This document shows, in pieces, positions 18,000 to 35,781 of a stretch of 51,041 nucleotides of DNA. Each line of letters opens with the position of its first letter. Position 1 is the first letter of the stretch. Under the pieces are notes generated by a model. It saw nothing but the letters and a program-made list of their open reading frames with translations, made no database searches and was not told the origin of the DNA. Source of the stretch: Methanobacteriota archaeon (GTDB taxonomy: Archaea; Halobacteriota; Methanosarcinia; Methanosarcinales; Methanosarcinaceae); contig JAENZL010000019.1 in assembly GCA_016841265.1 (NCBI GenBank), positions 2,288 to 53,328 of the forward strand, in the 5' to 3' direction. The translations under genes were made by a program, and so were the position numbers.

Positions 18000-19913
18000 A
18001 TGCAATTATTGCTTATTCATTCTGATTATATCGAATACGAAACCAAAAAACAGACTCCGGTAGCTGAAAAAATCGAAGACTCCTTAAAGTCCGGAAGGCT
18101 TGAAGAGGCCCTCACCGCGTTCATGGCTGTGGAGAGTGCAGACGAGACGAACCCCGAAGAAACAATCGGAAAGGCGGTCTCGGAAATCGAAAAGGTTGCA
18201 TCCCAGGTCAAGACCGACCGGATAATGCTCTATCCTTACGCTCACTTAAGCTCGGACCTTTCTTCCCCGAAAGTGGCGGTTAATGTCCTGAAAGGCATCG
18301 AAGCTGCCCTTTCCGCTAAGTATGAGGTCAAGCGCGCTCCCTTCGGCTGGTACAAGGCTTTCAAGATAAGCTGCAAGGGCCACCCCCTCTCCGAACTGTC
18401 CCGGACCATCCGGCCTGAGGGGGCAGCTCCGGCCGTATGCGGGGAAAAGGTTGTTGTAGCTGAAGAAAAGGAAGAAGTAGTTTCCGAAGCCCTGAAAGCT
18501 GAAGGTAGCGCGAGGTCTTACTGGCGCATCCTGACCCCTGACGGGGAACTCCATGAGATCGAAGGCTTCGACCTTTCTCCTTACCCGAAACTTCAGGATT
18601 TTGTGAATTATGAGATTTCCAAGAGCAGGGCAGTAAAGGAAGCCCCGCCCCATGTGGAACTCATGCGCAGGCTCGAACTTGCAGACTACGAACCGGGGTC
18701 CGATTCCGGGAACATGCGCTACTATCCCAAGGGCAGGCTCATCAAGTCCCTGATGGAAAACTACGTGCTTGATGTAGCATCCGAATTCGGGGCAATGGAA
18801 GTGGAAACTCCCCTGATGTACGACATGAACCACCCGACCCTGAAAAAATACCTGGACCGCTTCCCGGCAAGGCAGTACTCCATCGAGTCGGACAAGCGCC
18901 ACATGTTCCTGCGTTTTGCAGCCTGCTTCGGGCAGTTCCTGATGAACCACGACATGACGATCTCTTACAAGAACCTCCCCCTGAAGATGATCGAAATGAC
19001 CCGCTACAGTTTCAGGAAGGAACAGCGGGGAGAACTCGTGGGTCTCAGAAGGCTCAGGGCTTTTACAATGCCGGATATGCACTCCCTCTGCTCGGACATG
19101 GGTCAGGCCGTGGACCAGTTCATGCAGCAGTACAAGCTCTGCATCAGCGTCCTTGATAACATGGGGATCGATCTCGATGACTACGAGGTTGCAATCCGTT
19201 TCACGAAAGACTTTTACGAGTCTAACAGGGATCTGGTTAACTCCATGGTAAAAACCGTGGACAAACCCGTGCTCGTGGAAATGTGGGACACCCGTTTCTT
19301 CTACTTCGTGCTCAAGTTCGAGTTCAATTTCGTAGATGCCCTTGCCAAGGCAAGCGCCCTTTCCACCGTCCAGATCGATGTGGAAAACGCCGAACGTTAC
19401 GATATCTCTTACATTTCCTCCGAAGGCAAGGCCGAAAGGCCCACAGTACTCCACTGCTCCCCCAGTGGGGCAATCGAGCGCTGCATCTACGCCCTCCTTG
19501 AAAAAGCCGCCATGGAAACCGAAAAAGGGAAAGTACCCATGTTCCCGGTCTGGCTCTCCCCTACTCAGGTCAGGATCATCACTATCTCCGAAAAACAAAT
19601 GGACTTTGCAGAAGAAGTTTCAAAGAAGCTGGGCTGCAGGGTGGACATTGATGACAGGGAACTTTCCATCGGGAAAAAGATCAGGGAAGCTGGCAGGGAA
19701 TGGGTCCCCTATGTAGTGGTTATCGGGGATACGGAAGTCGAGGAAGGCACGATCAACGTGACCATAAGGGCCGAATCCGAACAGAAGAAGCCCATGAAAG
19801 TCCAGATGACCCCGGAAGAACTCAAAGAAAGGATCGGGGCAGAAACCGCAGGCAAGCCGTACAAAGGGCTGCCGCTTGCAAAATACCTCTCGGAAAGACC
19901 GAAGTTCCTTTAA
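18000..19913 (+). CDS. thrS: Threonyl-tRNA synthetase, archaeal type
   Basis: This 637-aa class II synthetase charges tRNA-Thr in the cytosol. Residues 1-145 match the archaeal N-terminal editing domain, related to D-aminoacyl-tRNA deacylase, which removes misattached serine; it replaces the bacterial TGS/SAD editing module. The catalytic core follows, with [17 protein letters not shown] near 240, the zinc cysteine in FAACFGQF near 310, motif 2 ([20 protein letters not shown]), the second zinc ligand in MPDMHSLC, and motif 3 ([17 protein letters not shown]). The anticodon-binding domain is about residues 525-637. The ATG has AGGTG seven bases upstream. Length fits archaeal ThrRS. It is monocistronic, with a likely terminator at the stop codon. 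Confidence 0.95.
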
Positions 19914-19927: not shown

Positions 19928-20060
19928 CCATTTTTCCCTTTATTCCTTTATAGAGCCAGGGTTAAAATGTAAGAATCCCTGCTCTTTCTTTAAGTTTTTC
20001 TTTGTAATCCGGAATAATTTATATATCTCTCCGATCAATTAATTGAATATCAGTTGTAAC

Positions 20061-20218
20061 TGAATTTTAGTTTAATTGAATCTTAGTTTAATTGAATTTT
20101 AGTTTAATTGAATTTTAGTTTAATTGAATTTTAGTTTAATTGAATTTTAGTTTAATTGAATCTTAGTTTAATTGAATCTTAGTTTAATTGAATTTTAGTT
20201 TAATTGAATCTTAGCTTA
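20061..20218. repeat. 16-bp tandem repeat, about 10 copies
   Basis: The unit TGAATTTTAGTTTAAT recurs every 16 bases with occasional T-to-C change (TGAATCTTAG). It is extremely AT-rich and lies between thrS and the helicase gene. Confidence 0.95.
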
Positions 20219-22797: not shown

Positions 22798-23287
22798 AGG
22801 GCGAGGGGAGAAGTGGGTTTCAGGAAAGGAGGGTAAGGTTTTGGGCAAAAATGAGATTCAGGGCAAAAATGACCAGGCAATTAGAATTGTTCAACTGTGT
22901 ATTTTATAGATTAGTAGTAAACAGAGTCAATCATATTTTACAGAACTTTCGCTACACTGCCAAAATCAATAACTAAAAACATGAAAGGGTCATATGAACC
23001 TATCTTAGTTCCGCATTTTTAAGCACATAACTGCCGCTTGATGTCGAATTATGTGCTTAAACTTAAGCATATCGTACGCAAGGTATAATCTCTAAAACCG
23101 TAACATCCGACCTCACAGATTTGCGCAGAAATATATATGCGCCTAAAAAGGCGGAAGTTAGGATCAAGGCAAACAACTCTGGTAGGATTCAGAAAATTTC
23201 TTTCTGAATGGAGTGTCAAGAAAGAATTAAAAAGTAAATAATTTATTCATTGAAGAGAAATTCATTCATGTCTTAGGAAGTGATAGG
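22798..23287. other. Intergenic boundary before the AT-rich island
   Basis: Composition becomes AT-rich from about 22880. The region holds a 13-bp perfect inverted repeat (23018-23061), a TATA-like aaatatatat near 23128-23137, and the Shine-Dalgarno AGGAAGTGA for the next gene. No gene is seen. Confidence 0.5.
23018..23061. promoter_or_regulatory. 13-bp perfect inverted repeat upstream of the EACC1-caspase-tubulin cluster
   Basis: TTTAAGCACATAA (23018-23030) and TTATGTGCTTAAA (23049-23061) are exact reverse complements separated by 18 bases. It lies about 65 bp upstream of a TATA-like sequence and 225 bp upstream of the first island gene. It could be an operator or a terminator-like hairpin. 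Confidence 0.5.
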
Positions 23288-23716
23288 TTGGAAGAGGTTA
23301 CTGAGAATCCTGATTTTCAAATTAATATGAAATCTGATGAAGTGGAAGAGTTTTCTGAATTTTGGCAGGATCAGTGCTATAAACTGTATAGTTCAATTAA
23401 AACGAGTTTACCTGAAGGTTCAATCGAGCATACGATAAAAGGGGGAGATGAAGGAGACAGGCTTGATAGAATTGATTTGTACAGCACGTTGGTAGTTTTC
23501 GGTGTAACTTTAAAGATATTTCGCAATGTAGTTCTGGATTTTATAAAAAGCTGGCTGAAATACAGGCCTAAAGCTCAGATTATTCTTGGTTGTGAAAAAG
23601 ATCCTCAAATAATAATTGACAATTTATCTTTACCTGAATTAGAAAAGTTTCTGCAAAAAAACCAGTATCTAAAAATCTGTGAAGCTTTAAAACTATTTAG
23701 GGATTCTAAAAAGTAA
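23288..23716 (+). CDS. Small EACC1-like protein (effector-associated component)
   Basis: A 142-aa protein. Its order of elements, an acidic N-terminal helix, a mid-protein hydrophobic helix (VVFGVTLKIFRNVVLDFIKSWLKYR, about residues 75-99), a beta-hairpin rich in Ile/Val (QIILGCEKDPQIIIDN) and a closing amphipathic helix (LPELEKFLQ), resembles the EACC1 components described from prokaryotic conflict systems, which are encoded next to caspase- or trypsin-like effectors. The match is by pattern only. It starts at TTG with AGGAAGTGA just upstream; the next in-frame ATG would remove 13 residues. It ends 12 bases before the caspase gene, so the two are probably co-transcribed. AT-rich codon use sets it apart from the helicase upstream. 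Confidence 0.6.
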   Translation: MEEVTENPDFQINMKSDEVEEFSEFWQDQCYKLYSSIKTSLPEGSIEHTIKGGDEGDRLDRIDLYSTLVVFGVTLKIFRNVVLDFIKSWLKYRPKAQIILGCEKDPQIIIDNLSLPELEKFLQKNQYLKICEALKLFRDSKK

Positions 23717-23728
23717 TGGGTAAATTAC

Positions 23729-25480
23729 ATGTCTGGAAAGAGACTCGGGCTTGTAATAGGAAACAACTATCCAGGTTCAGAGAATGAGTTAAAATTTGCA
23801 GTAGCTGATGCTCTACAAATGAAAGAAGTTCTTCTGAACAAAGATATATGTGGATTTGATCAAGTTGAGAAATCCATAAATGAACCATGCTTAGAGGCAA
23901 AAATTAAAGCTGAAAAAATTTTTAGTTCAGCAGGTGCGAATGATCTAGTTTTAATTTACTTCTCAGGGCACGGGAAAAAGCTGGATTTCAATAGTGAGCT
24001 TTGCATGCTTTTTAAAGATACATGTGAAGAAGCTTTGCTGGCAACTTCCTTCACTTTTGGATTCATTAATGAAATCAGAAAATATCCTCAGTTAAGGTCA
24101 GTTGTTATAGTCCTTGATTGTTGCTACAGTGGTGTTGCTGATATTAGAGGTGATGACCTTACTGATGCTTTTAAATACTGCTCTGGAATCGGTACCGTTC
24201 TACTTACCTCAACAGGAAAAACGGGTTCCATGTCTGCAAAAGAAGATAAGGACTTGGAACATGGAGTTTTTACCCACTTCCTTCTCGAAGGTTTAGAAAC
24301 AGGTTCAGTAGCTACTAATAACGATGGATACATTTCTATCGATGACCTTTACAAGTACGCTCGCGATAAAACAACAGAAAGGTGTTCACAATCTCCTAAA
24401 ATGGGTGGAAACATCGAAGGAGACATATTCATTGGGAAAAATCCCATGAAAATTATTGAAATTGAATACAATGAAAAAAAGAGCAAATTGATACGCGAAT
24501 ATTCTGGAATGCTTAAAGCCCCTATAACGAATGTATCTTTGACGATTCTAAAGAATAAGTATTACGAACCTTCATTACTGGGACCTCACGATGTGACTAT
24601 TCTCTCCAACCTTGAATCTCTTCTGAATGGAGAAGTTTCGCCCGAAAATTACACTGATATTGTTTGTTTCTGGAAAGGCATTGGTAATGGAGCCTCTGAT
24701 CAAAAAAATTCAATTCCACAAAGCCCAATGGTTGGATTTTTTGCTGAAGAAAAAAACGAATCCCCGGAAATAGACGAAGAATACGAAACTTCTGACATAT
24801 TTACAAGTAAAACTACAGGCATGAAATTCATAAAAATTCTCGAGGGGGATTTCATGATGGGGTCAAAGGAATATCACAATGAGAAACCTGTGCATAAAGT
24901 AAAAATCACTAAACCGTTCTATTTAGGCAGGTATCCTGTGACTAAAAAACAGTGGACAAAGGTAATGGACAGCACTCCCTCACATTTTGAAGGTGGCAAT
25001 AATCCTGTTGAGCTGGTTTCTTGGGATGATGTTCAGAATTTCATCAAAAAGTTAAACCAGATGGAGAGTACTGATAAATACCGCTTGCCTTCGGAATCTG
25101 AATGGGAATATGCATGTCGTGCTGACACTACAACAATATATTACTTTGGGGATGATGAATCAAAACTTGGCGGTTATGCATGGTATTCTGGCAACTCTGG
25201 CAGAAGGACTCATCCAGTAGGTATGAAGAAACCAAATTCCTGGGGACTTTATGATATGAATGGTAATGTTTGGGAATGGGTTCAAGACATACGGCATGAT
25301 GATTACGATGGTGCTTCTTCTGACGGGAGTGCATGGGAAGATGGAAATAGTTCCCGCCGTGTGTTACGGGGCGGCAGCTGGAGCAACTTAGCTAGGGGCT
25401 GCCGGTCTGCAAGTCGCAATTACCGTCGCCACGATTACCGCAAAGATAACTTAGGTTTTCGTGTCCTTAGGGAAATTTAA
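23729..25480 (+). CDS. Caspase-like (C14) protease fused to FGE/SUMF-type domain
   Basis: A 583-aa predicted effector. Residues 1-235 form a caspase/metacaspase-like domain with RLGLVIGNNYP at the start, the catalytic histidine in YFSGHGK (His81) and the catalytic cysteine in LDCCYSG (Cys132). A helical linker covers about 240-360. Residues 365-583 are a formylglycine-generating-enzyme/C-type-lectin-fold domain (MKFIKILEGDFMMGS, RLPSESEWEYACR, GLYDMNGNVWEWVQD, RVLRGGSW, GFRVLRE). The paired cysteines expected of active FGE are not evident, so this part is probably a recognition module. The last 40 codons are more GC-rich than the rest, and the RVLRGGSW...GFR ending is the type diversified by diversity-generating retroelements in other genomes. 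No reverse transcriptase was seen here. Confidence 0.82.
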   Translation: MSGKRLGLVIGNNYPGSENELKFAVADALQMKEVLLNKDICGFDQVEKSINEPCLEAKIKAEKIFSSAGANDLVLIYFSGHGKKLDFNSELCMLFKDTCEEALLATSFTFGFINEIRKYPQLRSVVIVLDCCYSGVADIRGDDLTDAFKYCSGIGTVLLTSTGKTGSMSAKEDKDLEHGVFTHFLLEGLETGSVATNNDGYISIDDLYKYARDKTTERCSQSPKMGGNIEGDIFIGKNPMKIIEIEYNEKKSKLIREYSGMLKAPITNVSLTILKNKYYEPSLLGPHDVTILSNLESLLNGEVSPENYTDIVCFWKGIGNGASDQKNSIPQSPMVGFFAEEKNESPEIDEEYETSDIFTSKTTGMKFIKILEGDFMMGSKEYHNEKPVHKVKITKPFYLGRYPVTKKQWTKVMDSTPSHFEGGNNPVELVSWDDVQNFIKKLNQMESTDKYRLPSESEWEYACRADTTTIYYFGDDESKLGGYAWYSGNSGRRTHPVGMKKPNSWGLYDMNGNVWEWVQDIRHDDYDGASSDGSAWEDGNSSRRVLRGGSWSNLARGCRSASRNYRRHDYRKDNLGFRVLREI

Positions 25481-25783
25481 CCACTTTACACTTTACTGTG
25501 CGACAAGAAGGCTAAGCTTGATCCGGTGGTTCGAAAACCTGATGTTGCGACATTGCTAAACCTGAGGTACTGAATCAACGTGAAGGCTCTGAGTTTTATT
25601 TTTCAAATTTATGGAGGTTATTGGACAAAATCAGATAAATATACTTAGATTTTGAAAGTGTTGGCATTAATTCCTTGCTATAGCATATTCTATGCTAAAC
25701 AAATTAGAAAATTTGATTTTAGCATTTGTAATAAAACTTTAAGACACTATGCCACCACATGTGCATTATTAAGGCAACCCTAA
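25481..25783. other. Non-coding gap between the caspase gene and the small ORF
   Basis: AT-rich DNA with stops in all forward frames; only peptides of 8-17 codons can be read. No Shine-Dalgarno, hairpin or repeat stands out. A copy of the caspase gene's variable 3' end, expected for a template repeat, was looked for by eye and not found. Confidence 0.5.
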
Positions 25784-26017
25784 CTGATATTTAAATCAGA
25801 GAAATTCCTGAAGATCTCCAAACTAGCTATTGAGCATGTTAGGAATTTGAATCTTCCAGATATTTCATGCTTTCTGGGAATTCGTACATCCAGAAACCTT
25901 GAGGATTATTTAGAAATATTCATAAACATAATAAAAATTTTAAATATTTCCTTTTATGTGAGTTTTATTGATGTTGGACTGGTTTCAGACCTAATGAATA
26001 GGGTGTGTAATAAATGA
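25784..26017 (+). CDS. Possible small ORF overlapping the tubulin-like gene by ATGA
   Basis: The frame is open for 77 codons from the stop at 25781 to TGA at 26015-26017, and the TGA overlaps the next gene's ATG as ATGA, a common sign of translational coupling. The peptide is helical with alternating charged and hydrophobic residues (FLKISKLAIEHVRNLNLPD, DYLEIFINIIKILNISFY). No ATG or GTG start occurs near the 5' end and no Shine-Dalgarno sequence is clear. It may be a gene with an unusual start, the remnant of a longer gene, or chance. The coordinates give the whole open frame, not a proven start. Confidence 0.3.
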   Translation: MIFKSEKFLKISKLAIEHVRNLNLPDISCFLGIRTSRNLEDYLEIFINIIKILNISFYVSFIDVGLVSDLMNRVCNK

Positions 26018-29000
26018 CATATTTAAAATTTCCCGATTACATTTACGCGGTTGGTGGCGCAGGTAAAGAAATAATATTACATATGCTTGAGAATGAATGG
26101 ATTTTAAAAGAGATACTAAAACCAGACCCGAATCCAAATTTTTGCAAGATAATTGTCGTTGATACAGCTTTTGCTGAGGTAAATCTGGATAAACAACGTA
26201 TAATAGAAATTAAAAGAAAGAAAGATGAGATAAGGTCAGAATACCTTCATGGACTCACAGAAAAGCAAAAAATATATTGTAGAATTGGAGATCTGGAAAT
26301 TGATTATGAACTTATAACGAAGTACATGCAATCTCCTGCAAATCTTGTACGTGAAAATGTTAGAGAGAATATCTTGAAATTTACAGATGCTTCATGTTAC
26401 TGGTTAAGTGATGAAAATATTTCACCCGATTGGCACCTTAAAATAGTGGAAAGTGTAAATTCACGAAATCTGGATTTTTCAAAAGGTGTGTATAGAAAAA
26501 GAGCGATTGGAAAAGCTATTTATTATAAAGCTTTAGCTGAACGTGCATTCATGGTGGATAATCATCCGCTATCAACGATAGCTATAGTGTGTAGTTTTGG
26601 TGGAGGTACCGGTTCAGGAATTGCCATTGACTTAGCTAAAGAAATAAAAGTTAATCACCAAACTTCATGCATAACTTTATTCGGAATATTATCCACACTC
26701 AATGAAAGAGAAGATGAAAAAGCTAACTGTTGTGGAATGCTTTCGGAATTGGAATACATTAATGTAAGCGACAAAATTCTTGATGAGTCAAAAGTAAACA
26801 ATGGTTTTACTATTCAGGAAAAGAATATTTTTAAAGATATAATACTTTTACCTATTGAAGCTACAAAATACACTGGTACACAATCAGTAGACCCAGCAAC
26901 CAGTGAATTTTTGTTCCAATTTGAGGAGGCGTTTCCTTATTCATTGATAGCATATTACAGCCAATCCAGTTGTCAAGCTCCTTGTGGATATACACCCAGT
27001 TTTGCGCCTTTTACAGTAGCTATTCCTCAAGTAGTTCGTTTTAACATTAACAAAATCCGAAAAATTAAGGATGAAATCTATGAAAAAAAGAGATGTAAGG
27101 AAGCTTCTTTAGAATCAGAATATAAAATTTATGGGATGTTATATGATTTTTTCAATAAAAACTTCGTGGTAAAACAAAATCAAGAATTAGCTGATATAGA
27201 CAAACTAATTCTTTATGATGACCGGTATTATAAGTATAAGAAAATATTAGAATCCAAGTATTTTACTGAATTAAAATATAACGGCATATTCACCGAATTA
27301 GAATTTAACAACATATTGAAATTAAAGAAAATTTTAGACAAAATAAATACGAATTTTGAGGAAGAACTCGGAAATAAAAATGTTTACGAAAAAGTAGATC
27401 AGCTGATTGATACTCTCAATCACGAAATTATAGGTGAAGGAATAAATACAACACAAAATCCGGGACAGACAGATCTAGATTCTTCACTTTTCAAGATGCT
27501 TATTGATGATATTGAAATGATCAGAAAGCAAATAGAAACCTTGAGATATATAAATTCAGTTGAAGATCTTTATGTAAAAGAGGTTCTCAAATCTATCATC
27601 AGGCTTGGAGAGAAAGGCTTAGGTCACAGATTAAATATAATTGATTGTAAGCTCGGAAACCTTGAAAATGAAAAAAATGAAGAAGAGTATTCAAAGTCCC
27701 ATGTAAAATCTTTTATAGAATTTTTTAAATATGAAATAACAATTTCCATTAAGTCCGAAAATAAAAACTTAAAGGACAAATATAGAGAAAAATATTCGGA
27801 ACTTAATAGTTTGGAAGACAATTCAAATATTCTTCGTGATAATTTCGCCACACTCAATCAAGAACTTATAACTTTTGTAAGTGACGTAAATAGAATGAGT
27901 AAATCGAAAGTAGATTCAATAAACTTAGAGCCAATAAAGGGATCAGTTAAAGCTATAGAGAGTGTAATTGCGAAAAATAATTTAAAATTGGGTTTCAATG
28001 GGCAAGAGATCATCAACACCGCGAACAAAATCAAAAGCTTGAGGAAAGCAATAATAGACTCTAAAATAAAAATTAGCGTTGTTGCCCGTCTTATCCCCGG
28101 TGAAACTAGAAGTGAAAGGATCAAAAAAGAGAGTATGGAAAACCGTAAGTCGATAATGACTTCGCTAAATCGTAATGAAAATGCTAAATTAAAAGTTGAT
28201 ATAAATCATAATGAAGAGATTGAAATAATTTATACTTTTGACATTGATGATAAAATCGATGAATTAAAGACTGAAATAATTTCTGAAATTTATTCTGATG
28301 TTGAAGAAAAATTCAAAAACGCTGACATGGTCCTGTTTAAAGAATTATATGAAAGCTTAGATAATCCTGATAAAAGAAGTGACATAAATCTTGAAGACAT
28401 TATAAAATCAAATGCGGAATTCGATATAAAGATATCTGAGTTTGAGGACGCATTAACTAAGTATGATAAACAAATATTAGTATTAAATGAAAAAATTAAT
28501 ATTTACAAGGATTTGAAAAAGTTAGTTCAGGAAGTTGCTCCTTACTATAAAAAACACTCTGAATCCTTAGAGAAATATCATTCCTTTATGCTAGGGGATG
28601 GGGTACAAGAAAGTATGGAAATTTCACGGACAAATGAGAATGCAAAGTATGTATATGAAATGCAACCTCGAGATATGTTACAGGTTTTAGCACTAAACCA
28701 AGATATAAAAAAGATTGTAGAGAATCGTTTTGACAGGGAAGACTTAGTAAGAAACATTAAAAGCTCCCTAGACAAAAACGTAAGCGCAAATTACAATCTT
28801 TTCGTGTTGAATACTATTGAAAACCCCTTGAGACAATGGAATTATACTAAAATGGGTTTTTGTCTAATCAGCAAGGTAAATAGGAGAGAAATTACTCAAC
28901 CTGTTTTCGATCATGTAACCAATTTAAAAGCTAATTTCGGAATTAGTAATCAAACAAATTTGGATAGATGGATTTTAGAAAGCGGAGATGATTGGGGTGT

Positions 29001-29301
29001 AGGATTGGTGACCTTCATATCTTCGGTACCCCTTGATAACATAAGAAATTTTGTACTACCAAATGGATATTTATCAGCCTACCAAAAGAGGAAATATAGT
29101 TCAGACAAAATGAGTTTCTTCCATAGTGCATACATGCTGCAAAATGGCAAACTAATTCATCGAACTAAAATACATGATGTTAAAGATAAAGATAAAGATC
29201 TTTTCTTGATTCCACCTGAAGATCAACTAAAATTAAAGAATTTGATTTACAAAAATATTGAGGTGGAGGAGCTTCGTGATTATGCGAAGAGGGTCTCCTA
29301 A
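26014..29301 (+). CDS. Large tubulin-like (Tubulin_2-type) GTPase with coiled coils
   Basis: A 1095-aa protein. The N-terminus has a glycine-rich nucleotide-binding opening (YAVGGAGKEI, residues 11-20), a following hydrophobic strand (KIIVVDTAF), and the tubulin/FtsZ signature GGGTGSG at residues 196-202, placing it in the tubulin-like GTPase superfamily. Residues about 340-880 are Lys/Glu-rich with long helical, coiled-coil segments. Residues about 900-1095 form a separate C-terminal domain with no recognised family (GFCLISKVNRREI, DRWILESGDDWGVGLVTFISS). Such proteins are far longer than FtsZ and are sporadic in prokaryotes; polymerisation or GTP switching is inferred. It follows the EACC1-like and caspase genes on the same strand and shares their AT-rich codon use. 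Confidence 0.75.
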   Translation: MTYLKFPDYIYAVGGAGKEIILHMLENEWILKEILKPDPNPNFCKIIVVDTAFAEVNLDKQRIIEIKRKKDEIRSEYLHGLTEKQKIYCRIGDLEIDYELITKYMQSPANLVRENVRENILKFTDASCYWLSDENISPDWHLKIVESVNSRNLDFSKGVYRKRAIGKAIYYKALAERAFMVDNHPLSTIAIVCSFGGGTGSGIAIDLAKEIKVNHQTSCITLFGILSTLNEREDEKANCCGMLSELEYINVSDKILDESKVNNGFTIQEKNIFKDIILLPIEATKYTGTQSVDPATSEFLFQFEEAFPYSLIAYYSQSSCQAPCGYTPSFAPFTVAIPQVVRFNINKIRKIKDEIYEKKRCKEASLESEYKIYGMLYDFFNKNFVVKQNQELADIDKLILYDDRYYKYKKILESKYFTELKYNGIFTELEFNNILKLKKILDKINTNFEEELGNKNVYEKVDQLIDTLNHEIIGEGINTTQNPGQTDLDSSLFKMLIDDIEMIRKQIETLRYINSVEDLYVKEVLKSIIRLGEKGLGHRLNIIDCKLGNLENEKNEEEYSKSHVKSFIEFFKYEITISIKSENKNLKDKYREKYSELNSLEDNSNILRDNFATLNQELITFVSDVNRMSKSKVDSINLEPIKGSVKAIESVIAKNNLKLGFNGQEIINTANKIKSLRKAIIDSKIKISVVARLIPGETRSERIKKESMENRKSIMTSLNRNENAKLKVDINHNEEIEIIYTFDIDDKIDELKTEIISEIYSDVEEKFKNADMVLFKELYESLDNPDKRSDINLEDIIKSNAEFDIKISEFEDALTKYDKQILVLNEKINIYKDLKKLVQEVAPYYKKHSESLEKYHSFMLGDGVQESMEISRTNENAKYVYEMQPRDMLQVLALNQDIKKIVENRFDREDLVRNIKSSLDKNVSANYNLFVLNTIENPLRQWNYTKMGFCLISKVNRREITQPVFDHVTNLKANFGISNQTNLDRWILESGDDWGVGLVTFISSVPLDNIRNFVLPNGYLSAYQKRKYSSDKMSFFHSAYMLQNGKLIHRTKIHDVKDKDKDLFLIPPEDQLKLKNLIYKNIEVEELRDYAKRVS

Positions 29302-29463
29302 TTTGTTTATTTTGAAGCAGAAAATTGGGTATGGAATTCCGATCTTGAAAAGCCGGGAAGGCAGTCGGAAAAGGAGCTGAGAAAGTAGCTTGAAGGGGTA
29401 TTTGGAAAAGGTAGCTGGCAATTGAATATTTCCCTACCTGAAACCGGAATAACCGGATTAGCC

Positions 29464-29765
29464 TTCTCCAGTCGTGCTTGTCCGGACGCAGTCCGGCTTT
29501 TCCAAAACGTAATATAAAAGATAATTAAAAAGCAAAAGCGCCATCAAGAGTGCTGAAGGCTATTTTACTCGAGATCAAAAACAGAATTAATATTTAAATA
29601 TAGTTTGAATTCATATCTTTTTTATCTTAATTTCTATTTCGGAGAGGGCCGCCAGGCAAGCTGGCGGAGGCTTCTCGATCTCTCTTCAGGACAGAACGGT
29701 TTATGGGGTCGAAGAAAGCATTTACTGCAAGTTACTGGTTGCTATCTAAAATCTCCTTTTAGAAC
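29464..29765. repeat. Dispersed hairpin element, copy 1
   Basis: The core is GGAGAGGG followed by the perfect hairpin CCGCCAGGCAAGCTGGCGG (29649-29667), then a conserved tail with CAGGACAGAACGGTTTATGG, a GTCGAAGAAAGCATTTACTG-type segment and GCTATCTAAAATCTC. The tail and hairpin are nearly identical in copy 2 (30777-30925). The 5' part (GCAGTCCGGCTTTTCC onward) is shared with copy 3 (35265-35520). Confidence 0.85.
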
Positions 29766-29798
29766 TCCTTAACTCAGGTCGCCTTACCAATTTGATAA

Positions 29799-29831: not shown

Positions 29832-30659
29832 ATGGAAAACAACATAATTTATCACTACTGTGGCATGGATTCATTTTTTGGAATCATAACAAATAAAAAT
29901 ATTAGATTGTCCAATGCCTATAAGACTAATGATTCTACTGAGTTAGAGTGGATATTTTCCATAATGGAAGACTCTATGACTGGTGTTTCTAAAACTGAAA
30001 TTGTATCCTCACTTCAAAAAAGTTACCGAAACTGGTTGGAAAATTATTTTAGGCCGCACATAGCCTGTTTTTCTAAAGACGGAGACTTAATGAGCCAATG
30101 GAGAGCTTATGCAAATGATGGAAAAGGCATTTCAATAGGGTTTAATAGGGAATATTTTGAATCAATTAAAATGTTGGACAACAAGGAATTTGAAATATTT
30201 GATGTAGTTTATAAACCTAAAGAACAAGAAAAATTGCTGAAGAATTTGTTTTTGACTACTATGAAAAAAAAATTGGAATTTTTGGAAGAATTAAATGGCT
30301 CTAAAGGAGATGCTAATTGTTTTGAAGAAATTATGTTTACTGGTGATCTTCTAAAATATGGAATGATATTTAAGAATGAAACCTTCTTTGAAGAAAAAGA
30401 GGTCAGATTAATTCATGGATTTGACGAAATAGCCGCAGAGCCGGATATTTTTGAATATCGAGTTACTCAAGATGATTTAATTTCTTTCGTGGAAATACCA
30501 ATTGATGTTGAAAATAGTTATCCTCCGATTAAAGAGATTATTTTAGGACCAAACTGTAAAGTGAATCCCAAATGTCTGAGGAATTTTTTAGAACAAAAAT
30601 TATCTCCTAAATCAATTAGAATAGAAATAAATAAATCAAGGTCGAGTTACAGGTCTTAA
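29832..30659 (+). CDS. DUF2971 domain protein
   Basis: A 275-aa protein of the DUF2971 family, recognised by the N-terminal IIYHYCGMDSFFGIITNKNIRLSNAYKTND segment (residues about 4-34), the middle CFSKDGDLMSQWRAYANDGKGISIGF motif (about 79-104) and the C-terminal IKEIILGPNCK strand. The family's biochemistry is not established; it is often seen in accessory and defence-rich regions. It has AT-rich codon use like the tubulin-like gene. The gene is bracketed by two near-identical repeat copies (29630-29765 and 30777-30925), so the 1.1-kb unit could have moved or could be lost by recombination. The start at 29832 is supported by the TATA spacing. Confidence 0.75.
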   Translation: MENNIIYHYCGMDSFFGIITNKNIRLSNAYKTNDSTELEWIFSIMEDSMTGVSKTEIVSSLQKSYRNWLENYFRPHIACFSKDGDLMSQWRAYANDGKGISIGFNREYFESIKMLDNKEFEIFDVVYKPKEQEKLLKNLFLTTMKKKLEFLEELNGSKGDANCFEEIMFTGDLLKYGMIFKNETFFEEKEVRLIHGFDEIAAEPDIFEYRVTQDDLISFVEIPIDVENSYPPIKEIILGPNCKVNPKCLRNFLEQKLSPKSIRIEINKSRSSYRS

Positions 30660-31125
30660 TATGTATAATGCGAAACCCTATAAAAGTATAAAATGTTCTG
30701 CTTTCATTTCCTGCCCTCAACCTTAAAGAACTTATTATCAAATGTCCCGCACTCAGTCGTATAATCCTGCAAATATATTAATTTCTATTTCGGAGAGGGC
30801 CGCCAGGCAAGCTGGCGGAGGATTCTATCTCTTTTCAGGACAGAACGGTTTATGGGGTAGAAGAAAGTATTTACTGCAAGTTACTGGTTGCTATCTAAAA
30901 TCTCTTCTTTGAACTCCTTAGCTCAGATCGTCTTTTGAATTAGTCTTTTTTCGGAATAGCTGAAATCTTCAAATGTATAGTTTGATTGTCTGGCCATAAA
31001 AAACAAGTAACATGCAGAAAATATCTGTACATTTTATTGTAATGTTAAATGTAAAAATTTGAAGTAAAATTTTACTTCTTTTCATCCAAAATTTTTATTA
31101 ATCTTTCAGTTATCGGAGGATCAAT
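30660..31125. other. Intergenic region with repeat-element copy 2
   Basis: It contains copy 2 of the dispersed element (30777-30925) and an AT-rich stretch leading to the GGAGG ribosome-binding site of the next gene. Nothing coding is seen. Confidence 0.55.
30777..30925. repeat. Dispersed hairpin element, copy 2
   Basis: It contains the same hairpin CCGCCAGGCAAGCTGGCGG (30800-30818) and the same tail as copy 1, in the same orientation, with scattered substitutions. Together with copy 1 it flanks the DUF2971 gene as a direct repeat of about 140 bp. Confidence 0.9.
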
Positions 31126-32295
31126 ATGAGTCAAAAGCTAAAAATGAGCCTGTTATTTCTTGTTTTGATTTTATTAATACAATCATTGAATGTAGCGGCT
31201 GCAGCAGCACCTGCAGAACAATGGAACAGGTCTTTTGGCGGAGGTAGTGAAGATAATTTCAGATGCGTTGAACAGACTTCAGATGGCGGGTACGTAGTTG
31301 CTGGTTCAACATATTCATACGGCAAAGGGACAAAAGGCTATCCTGATGCCTGGCTTATCAAGGTTGACAATAAGGGGGATCTGCAGTGGAATAAGACTTT
31401 CGGAGGAACGTATTTTGATGAGGGATACTTTACCCGGCAAACCTCAGATGGAGGTTATGTGTTATCGGGTTATACATTTCCTTCCGGTTATGCCGAGCCC
31501 TGGCTGGTCAGGACCGACAGGAACGGAAATGAGATGTGGAACAAGGTATCTGATGAAATCACTCACGAGGATTATCTCCAATATATGGCTGAACGTACCT
31601 CTGATGGGGGATACATAATTGGAGATACGGTTGTACATGAAATTGGAAGTTATTTCGCTTCTCTTCTAGTTGATTATGATATCAGGATAACTAAATATGA
31701 TATAAACGGCAATCAGCAATGGAATAGCACCTTTGGCAAAAACCAGAGTCTTGAAACATTAAATCCTCTATTAAATTCTGTTAAGCAGACTTCTGATGGT
31801 GGATATGTAATTGCCAGCACAACCAGGTCAAAAGAATCAAACAGTGATGATATCTGGCTTATCAAGACCGATGAATCTGGTCAGGAGCAGTGGAATAAGA
31901 CTTTCGGCGGCCCGATGGATGATGCTGCAATCTCGATTTCAATAACTTCGGACAATGGTTATGTGTTGACGGGAAGGTATAACGATTCTTTGTCTTTCGT
32001 GATAGATGGTTCTGCTTTCATACTCAAAACGGACAGTGACGGTAACCAAGAATGGCTAAAAGAGTTTACAAATTGCACGCTCTATTCCGTTCAACAGACT
32101 TCGGATGGCGGGTATGTAGCTGCTGGCGTCAAAAATGAGAATGCATGGTTGGTTAAGCTGGCAGGTGATGGAAGGAATACTGAAAATGAAGGATCATCAA
32201 TTGAATCTGATGATACATCTGACAGCGTTTTCAGCCAGATATTAAATTACATCTACGGTATGTATCAGATATCAACAATTACAATAGAATTTTAA
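31126..32295 (+). CDS. Secreted SDGGYV-repeat (beta-propeller-like) protein
   Basis: A 389-aa exported protein. Residues 1-30 form a signal peptide (Lys-rich start, then LLFLVLILLIQSL and an Ala-rich cleavage region). The mature part is built from about six to seven repeats of 45-55 residues, each with a core such as QTSDGGYVVAG followed by DAWLIKVDNKGDLQWNKTFGG, a pattern common in Methanosarcina surface proteins and consistent with a beta-propeller fold. The C-terminus has no membrane anchor or PGF-CTERM motif, so the protein may be secreted or truncated. The start ATG has GGAGG seven bases upstream. Function is unknown; surface binding is inferred. Confidence 0.75.
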   Translation: MSQKLKMSLLFLVLILLIQSLNVAAAAAPAEQWNRSFGGGSEDNFRCVEQTSDGGYVVAGSTYSYGKGTKGYPDAWLIKVDNKGDLQWNKTFGGTYFDEGYFTRQTSDGGYVLSGYTFPSGYAEPWLVRTDRNGNEMWNKVSDEITHEDYLQYMAERTSDGGYIIGDTVVHEIGSYFASLLVDYDIRITKYDINGNQQWNSTFGKNQSLETLNPLLNSVKQTSDGGYVIASTTRSKESNSDDIWLIKTDESGQEQWNKTFGGPMDDAAISISITSDNGYVLTGRYNDSLSFVIDGSAFILKTDSDGNQEWLKEFTNCTLYSVQQTSDGGYVAAGVKNENAWLVKLAGDGRNTENEGSSIESDDTSDSVFSQILNYIYGMYQISTITIEF

Positions 32296-32304
32296 AAAGC
32301 GAAA

Positions 32305-32375
32305 TCTTTTCGGGATAAAATAATCTCTTATCAGGAAAAAACAATTTTTGGGGTTGAAGAAAGCATTATACAGGG
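32305..32375. repeat. Degenerate partial copy of the dispersed element
   Basis: The sequence from AATCTCTTATCAGGAAAAAA to GGGGTTGAAGAAAGCATT corresponds to the tail of copies 1 and 2 (CTCT..TCAGGA, then GGGGTCGAAGAAAGCATT) but lacks the hairpin. Confidence 0.5.
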
Positions 32376-34973: not shown

Positions 34974-35781
34974 AGGTATTCCTGCTGAAGTGTCTGCTTG
35001 TATTGTAAAAAGTGAATGAAATATCGATTTTCAAATTATTTTGAATGAAATATCGACTTTTATCTTTTTTAATGTATTAAATAATAATGAATGTTCTTAT
35101 ATTTTAATCCACGTATAATTTGTAGGTTATTTATGGGCAAAAAAATCAATCGCGGAAGCCACAAACTACATTCATCGAGAATTCTTCAGTTTTATTTTTA
35201 GGAAATTTGTACTACCTTTAAATCCTCAATATTTTTGGCCGTATCTATTTCCTTCTATTCTGCCCTGGACTATTCTTCCCCGGGTGCAGTCCGGTTTTCC
35301 TAAATCAAAGGTAAAAAGATAGGTAGAAAGTAAAAGTGACATGAGATATATAGAAAAACTTATTCAAAATTAAAAAGAGACTTAATATTTTTAGGTGTCA
35401 TGTAGTTATATATTTCCTTAATTTTTAATTTTCATTTTCGGAAAGGACCGCCAGGCAAGCTGGCGGAGGCTTTCGATCTCCTATCGGAAAAACGGTTTTA
35501 GGGGTCGATGGAATCAGTTCTGTAGTCAAAATTTATTCTTTTTGTTCTATTTTTATATTCTAAGTCCGTTTTTGGGATCCGTTTGATGAAACTTTGCTTT
35601 AGTTTTCTCTTCGTAGGCTTTATATTACTGTTTTTCACCAAAACTTTCTATGTATTTTTTATGAAATTTTACTAATAAATAAGAAAGTAAATATAAGATC
35701 AAGCTAAATTTATAACAAAAGATTATAAAAATCTTCAATATCTTTCTCAAATCTCAACAGAACTTGGGTTACTGATTCTCC
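34974..35781. other. Intergenic region with repeat-element copy 3
   Basis: An 800-bp AT-rich spacer between divergent genes. It contains copy 3 of the dispersed element (35265-35520) and AT-rich promoter-like DNA at about 35660-35740. No ORF is convincing. Confidence 0.55.
35265..35520. repeat. Dispersed hairpin element, copy 3
   Basis: GGAAAGGA is followed by the same hairpin CCGCCAGGCAAGCTGGCGG (35448-35466), then GAGGCTTTCGATCTC and a diverged tail with AACGGTTTTAGGGGTCGA. Upstream, GTGCAGTCCGGTTTTCC and AGACTTAATATTTTTAGGTG resemble the 5' part of copy 1. Confidence 0.75.

Follow-up and report, generated by a model that had tools for sequence, protein, structure and literature searches.

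Proteins of the FtsZl1 family, which are widespread, were described in archaea and bacteria that possess FtsZ too (Makarova & Koonin 2010, PMC2875224). They comprise ~1050 residues, with an N-terminal FtsZ-like domain that harbours the GGGTG(S/T)G motif, an extended coiled coil and a mostly helical C-terminal domain, and their genes are typically found in operons with those of membrane proteins and of a distinct GTPase. Their T6-H7-T7 elements could not be aligned, and the proteins were suggested to form filaments in a new manner or not at all; filament formation was left open in that description because the T7 active-site region was not found (PMC2875224). Tubulin_2 genes are also borne by the Borgs of Methanoperedens (PMC9879509, PMC12660748). 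As to conflict systems, a two-gene type called 'System 4' has been described (Kaur et al. 2020, PMC7159879), in which the gene for EACC1 precedes one for a caspase that is fused to a variable C-terminal domain. FtsZ/tubulin domains were reported as rare effector domains in the same study, as were tubulins in GTPase-centred conflict systems.

The window analysed here is a stretch of 51,041 nucleotides of an archaeal genome of the Methanosarcinaceae (assembly GCA_016841265.1, contig JAENZL010000019.1). It codes for an orphan FtsZl1 (Tubulin_2) protein, hereafter the window copy, at positions 26014-29301 of the forward strand. This type of protein is already known, and the novelty lies in its genomic context, namely its orphan state and its location in a caspase-linked insert.

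Sequence features and predicted structure

The gene is an intact open reading frame that starts with ATG and codes for 1095 residues without any internal stop. Its GC content is 31%, and the probability that a frame as long as 1095 codons would be open by chance at the given GC is ~1e-39. The tubulin/FtsZ signature GGGTGSG, which the first-pass annotation of the window had placed at residues 196-202, was found by regular expression at exactly that position (26599-26619, + strand), where it forms the T4 loop between S4 and H4 in the AlphaFold2 model; its chance expectation in a protein of the same composition is 3e-7. The GL that precedes this motif in GLGGGTGSG is replaced by SF in the window copy. 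The T1 (first nucleotide-binding) loop, GGAGK, follows S1 at residues 14-18 (26053-26067, + strand), and G14, G15, A16, G17 and K18 are all unchanged across 27 aligned homologues. The core GTP-site residues are all kept in the window copy, i.e. those of GGAGK and GGGTGSG as well as D206, E231, E235 and N238.

A Pfam scan gave two matches within residues 166-254, one to Tubulin_2 (PF13809; 28.5 bits for a curated cut-off of 27, E=1.2e-6), the family with which the first-pass annotation had proposed a comparison, and one to Tubulin (PF00091; 32.0 bits, just below the cut-off of 33). In a genome search, the window copy shared 29-43% identity with archaeal FtsZl1 proteins. The AlphaFold2 model, built from 27 homologues, has a mean pLDDT of 75.8 and a pTM of 0.58. 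Modelled strands and helices alternate (residues 9-13/14-26/43-50/56-80/93-100/159-175/188-194/199-214/219-226/233-251/275-280), in the order expected of the tubulin nucleotide domain. All 50 matches listed by Foldseek against the PDB are tubulin-superfamily chains, with probabilities of 0.99-1.00. The corresponding E-values are only 1e-3 to 6e-3, with TM scores to the target of 0.28-0.39; these E-values are only ~1e-3 because the long remainder of the protein does not match. A profile search of PDB sequences placed phage TubZ at the top (4xcq, 3.2e-5), which shares an RK..G..YYK stretch with the profile, followed by CetZ/FtsZ-type chains; CetZ is also among the top fold matches. Unlike the window copy, TubZ and CetZ are ~360-400 residues long and have no coiled coil; they also retain the T7 loop. 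The earlier proposal of a tubulin-like fold was therefore borne out by structure prediction, with a predicted tubulin/FtsZ N-terminal domain and no sign in AlphaFold2 or Foldseek of a non-tubulin fold over residues 1-330. Altogether, sequence and model support the assignment of the window copy to the tubulin/FtsZ superfamily as a member of the FtsZl1 (Tubulin_2) family.

The central region of the protein (residues ~432-923; 27307-28782, + strand) is nearly all helical according to DSSP on the model, in agreement with the long coiled coils noted at first, and it corresponds to the published FtsZl1 coiled-coil segment (PMC2875224). The C-terminal region (residues ~946-1086; 28849-29271, + strand) is retained in relatives devoid of the coiled coil, and in the model it is alpha/beta rather than purely helical. 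Confidence in the model is only moderate for the S6-H7-T7 region and for the C-terminal domain. No T7-type GxxNxDxxD motif is present after the putative H7 (residues 294-315), and NxD-like matches occur only elsewhere in the protein. FtsZ_C (PF12327) was matched neither in the Pfam scan nor at this locus in the genome search. Two ordinary cell-division FtsZ genes, with frames of 384 and 400 residues, are found elsewhere in the genome and cover the division function. The distinction drawn in the first-pass annotation between this protein and cell-division FtsZ is thus upheld, and so is its length of about three times that of FtsZ. In contrast, its size is no anomaly, since its length and domain layout are those usual among published FtsZl1 proteins (PMC2875224), which the window copy resembles in its tubulin-type N-domain, coiled coil, similar length, lack of a recognisable T7 loop and coexistence with FtsZ.

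Two Halorubrum loci (L077:5165-6847 and L079:10001-11689) code for miniature FtsZl1 proteins of ~560 residues, in which the coiled coil is deleted and the C-terminal region kept. Their T4 loop is changed to GLGGATSG, and the operon partners are absent. The model of this coiled-coil-free form gave stronger matches to tubulin, FtsZ and CetZ (47 with E<=1e-3, TM to target <=0.47), with TM scores that stay below 0.5 and with residues 315-465 poorly modelled. This is at most suggestive of an arrangement in which the C-terminal alpha/beta region would complete the second tubulin domain, the coiled coil being inserted into it.

Genetic context of the relatives and of the window copy

Relatives were gathered from 150 related genomes, 393 genomes of the phylum and 31 named contigs. 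The scan of the collection retrieved nothing with a single-protein query and 31 loci with an alignment-based query. They form two main clades. Clade A contains proteins of the ANME Methanoperedens/Ethanoperedens lineages, of haloarchaea and of a Methanohalobium plasmid, and clade B those of Methanosarcinaceae and other methanogens, including a second FtsZl1 copy of the window's own genome. In both clades, a gene for a multi-transmembrane protein of ~480 residues with a P-loop (e.g. GPAKSGKT) and a TKSD motif (hereafter TM-GTPase) lies after the tubulin gene, and another conserved gene comes next. The methanogen and ANME loci also have a gene for a secreted or transmembrane protein ahead of the tubulin gene. 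The TM-GTPase weakly resembles DO-GTPase2 (E-values of 2e-4 to 0.02, below the cut-off). In 49 of the 50 full-length archaeal relatives with enough downstream sequence to assess, its gene is the next one downstream of the tubulin gene, with a gap of -20 to +20 bp in most cases; in the exception (L125), a short transmembrane protein is followed by a separate P-loop protein.

Unlike these family members, the window copy stands alone, without an operon. Its neighbours are EACC1-like and caspase-FGE genes upstream and a DUF2971 gene downstream, and no TM-GTPase gene adjoins it at the locus. No homologue of the clade-A TM-GTPase was found in the whole 97%-complete genome (best E-value 1.14), nor were remnants of the TM-GTPase or G4 genes detectable in the intergenic DNA. 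A 77-codon frame at 25784-26017, whose stop overlaps the start of the tubulin gene (ATGA), looks similar by eye to the terminal part of the secreted partner. We rejected it as a remnant of that partner, as its profile score of 0.8 bits was equalled by 676 of 5000 shuffled sequences. The simplest history suggested by these comparisons is that the window copy lost its operon partners in its own lineage, given that the operon is present in every surrounding group. The orphan state is the oddity that the first-pass annotation missed.

The second FtsZl1 of the genome is encoded in a complete operon (L040:4402-12016, G000:C20), in the order secreted protein, tubulin, TM-GTPase and further gene; congeners have syntenic copies of this operon. 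The window copy might act in trans with this resident system, as a variant or interfering subunit, since the second FtsZl1 does sit in an operon with all its partners. However, the two share no more than 18% identity over their whole length and belong to different, well-supported clades, which makes co-assembly unlikely, and we give this possibility a slim chance.

Phylogeny and origin of the insert

The window copy is part of an insert of ~6.6 kb (~22,810-29,430) with a GC content of 34%, versus 49% for the flanks. In two congeneric genomes, the alignment with the window extends to position 22809 and resumes at ~29431, with ~130 bp between; this empty site confirms that the gene lies in an accessory island, as initially proposed. 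The insert contains exactly three genes, all on one strand, which code for the EACC1-like protein, the caspase-FGE protein and the tubulin. Neither an integrase nor inverted repeats were seen at the insert, and it contains no RNA families.

In the FastTree phylogeny, the window copy groups with the Methanoperedens/Ethanoperedens copies with a support of 100 (SH-like) and a long branch of 1.17, apart from the clade-B copy of its own genome. The tree thus indicates that the window gene probably derives from the ANME (Methanoperedens/Ethanoperedens) branch and was horizontally acquired. Other origins were considered. A viral origin was rejected, as no relative was found in the scan of viral contigs or among phages, and so was a plasmid origin, as the matches on a Methanohalobium plasmid (NC_014254.1, M. 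evestigatum) and on three haloarchaeal plasmids are distant (27-37% identity). The Borgs recall the window copy in that their host group, Methanoperedens, also contains its neighbours in the tree; Borg sequences lie outside the collections compared.

Association with a putative EACC1-caspase pair

The first gene of the insert (23288-23716, + strand) codes for a small protein of 142 residues with one hydrophobic segment, which we call EACC1-like on the basis of its position and of its homologues being encoded beside caspase-FGE genes; it matched no Pfam or NCBIfam profile, including that of any named EACC1 family. The second gene (23729-25480, + strand) codes for a protein of 583 residues with a caspase (C14) domain (PF00656, 1.1e-12) and an FGE-sulfatase domain (PF03781, 4.7e-49), which scored 109 bits with NCBIfam caspase_w_EACC1, below the cut-off of 140. 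In its arrangement, the pair resembles System 4: the 5' gene codes for a small protein with a single hydrophobic segment, and the next gene for a caspase fused to FGE. It differs from System 4 in that it is archaeal, that the small protein matches no named EACC1 family and that an FtsZl1 gene is found downstream in the same insert.

Related EACC1/caspase-FGE pairs are found in other Methanosarcinaceae. The EACC1 gene adjoins the caspase-FGE gene at the examined loci with complete gene calls; the gene calls of three of the nine loci are fragmentary. The EACC1-caspase-FGE loci L105, L106 and L107 are broken into several short open reading frames in these calls, possibly reflecting decaying copies. 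A tubulin gene is absent from all nine related EACC1 loci, and we thus rejected the idea of a conserved EACC1-caspase-tubulin trio. The adjacency of the tubulin gene to the pair is not conserved, and their joint arrival in one insert is the sole positive evidence for a link.

The tubulin could still be a working third part of an anti-invader cassette, in which a membrane-tethered caspase pair would control, or be scaffolded by, a tubulin polymer. That the three genes share one strand and make up the whole insert speaks for this proposal, as do the reported FtsZ/tubulin effector domains and tubulin-containing GTPase conflict systems (PMC7159879). However, besides its absence from the nine related loci, no relative of the window tubulin has an EACC1- or caspase-like neighbour, a gap of 533 bp separates the caspase and tubulin genes, and the arrangement occurs in one genome only; we thus regard the cassette as quite improbable. 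Similarly, it is very doubtful that the orphan tubulin-like polymer was recruited into an EACC1-caspase conflict cassette of an archaeon, so that a caspase and a GTP-dependent scaffold would travel and function jointly on the 6.6 kb island, in a prokaryotic caspase-cytoskeleton pairing. The linked pair nevertheless raises the question of whether cytoskeletal proteins are drawn into conflict islands of archaea. The operon of the relatives, with its secreted or transmembrane protein, coiled-coil tubulin and membrane P-loop protein, looks like an archaeal counterpart of the GTPase-centred conflict systems. It differs from them in that the DO-GTPase2 match of the relatives is below the cut-off, and the window copy differs further in having no GTPase partner at its locus.

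Sequence conservation and possible function

Of the 93 positions at which the other 26 sequences show no variation, the window copy deviates at 18. The sequence that ranks next in isolation deviates at 7 of 82 positions (Fisher p=0.05 versus the window copy). This comparison is biased, because a sequence whose close relatives are also in the set is unable to deviate. The constraint on the window copy may be relaxed, and the protein may no longer work normally. The window copy might even be a relic, dragged in with the insert, deprived of its operon and now decaying without function, in which case ordinary gene loss after transfer would account for it. The altered positions, the absence of all operon partners and the comparable lone Halorubrum copies, with their broken T4 loop and lost coiled coil, are in line with such decay. 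Conversely, the 1095 codons are fully open at 31% GC, and the core GTP-site residues are all retained, and hence we consider a relic unlikely.

We favour the hypothesis, to which we assign a probability of roughly 0.58, that the window copy is an FtsZl1 acquired by horizontal transfer and since orphaned, which binds GTP and self-associates, but has lost its membrane partner. The N-terminal domain would bind GTP and make the subunits associate head to tail or side by side, and the coiled coil would tie them into bundles or spacers. In the normal operon, the adjoining membrane-bound GTPase, rather than a self-made T7 site, would control hydrolysis or release. Without its partner, the window copy would most likely act as a cytoplasmic scaffold that is bound to GTP and switches slowly, or be inert, and would not form a dynamic division ring. 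A natural copy without the membrane GTPase separates the action of the tubulin part itself from that of its partner, and the Halorubrum miniature, with 560 residues and no coiled coil, represents the complementary natural deletion.

Surroundings of the insert

The DUF2971 protein encoded immediately downstream of the insert (29832-30659) weakly matches PDC-S31, a candidate defence family (3.5e-6), and clearly matches the phage family phrog_1762 (1.2e-23). Two good copies of a dispersed repeat of ~130-170 bp flank its gene (29623-29792 and 30774-30941), and other copies are found at 32323-32367 and 35422-35518; a search of the genome with this repeat gave 25 matches at E<=1e-3. In the congener G003, which is devoid of the DUF2971 gene, the flanks join in the repeat. 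Further downstream (31126-32295) lies the gene of a protein that contains repeated 'QTSDGGYV' units and is predicted to be secreted; it is present in G003 and not in G001. Upstream of the insert, an array of a tandem 16-bp unit (TAATTGAATTTTAGTT) is located at 20041-20216, between a threonyl-tRNA-synthetase-like open reading frame (18000-19913) and a helicase gene.
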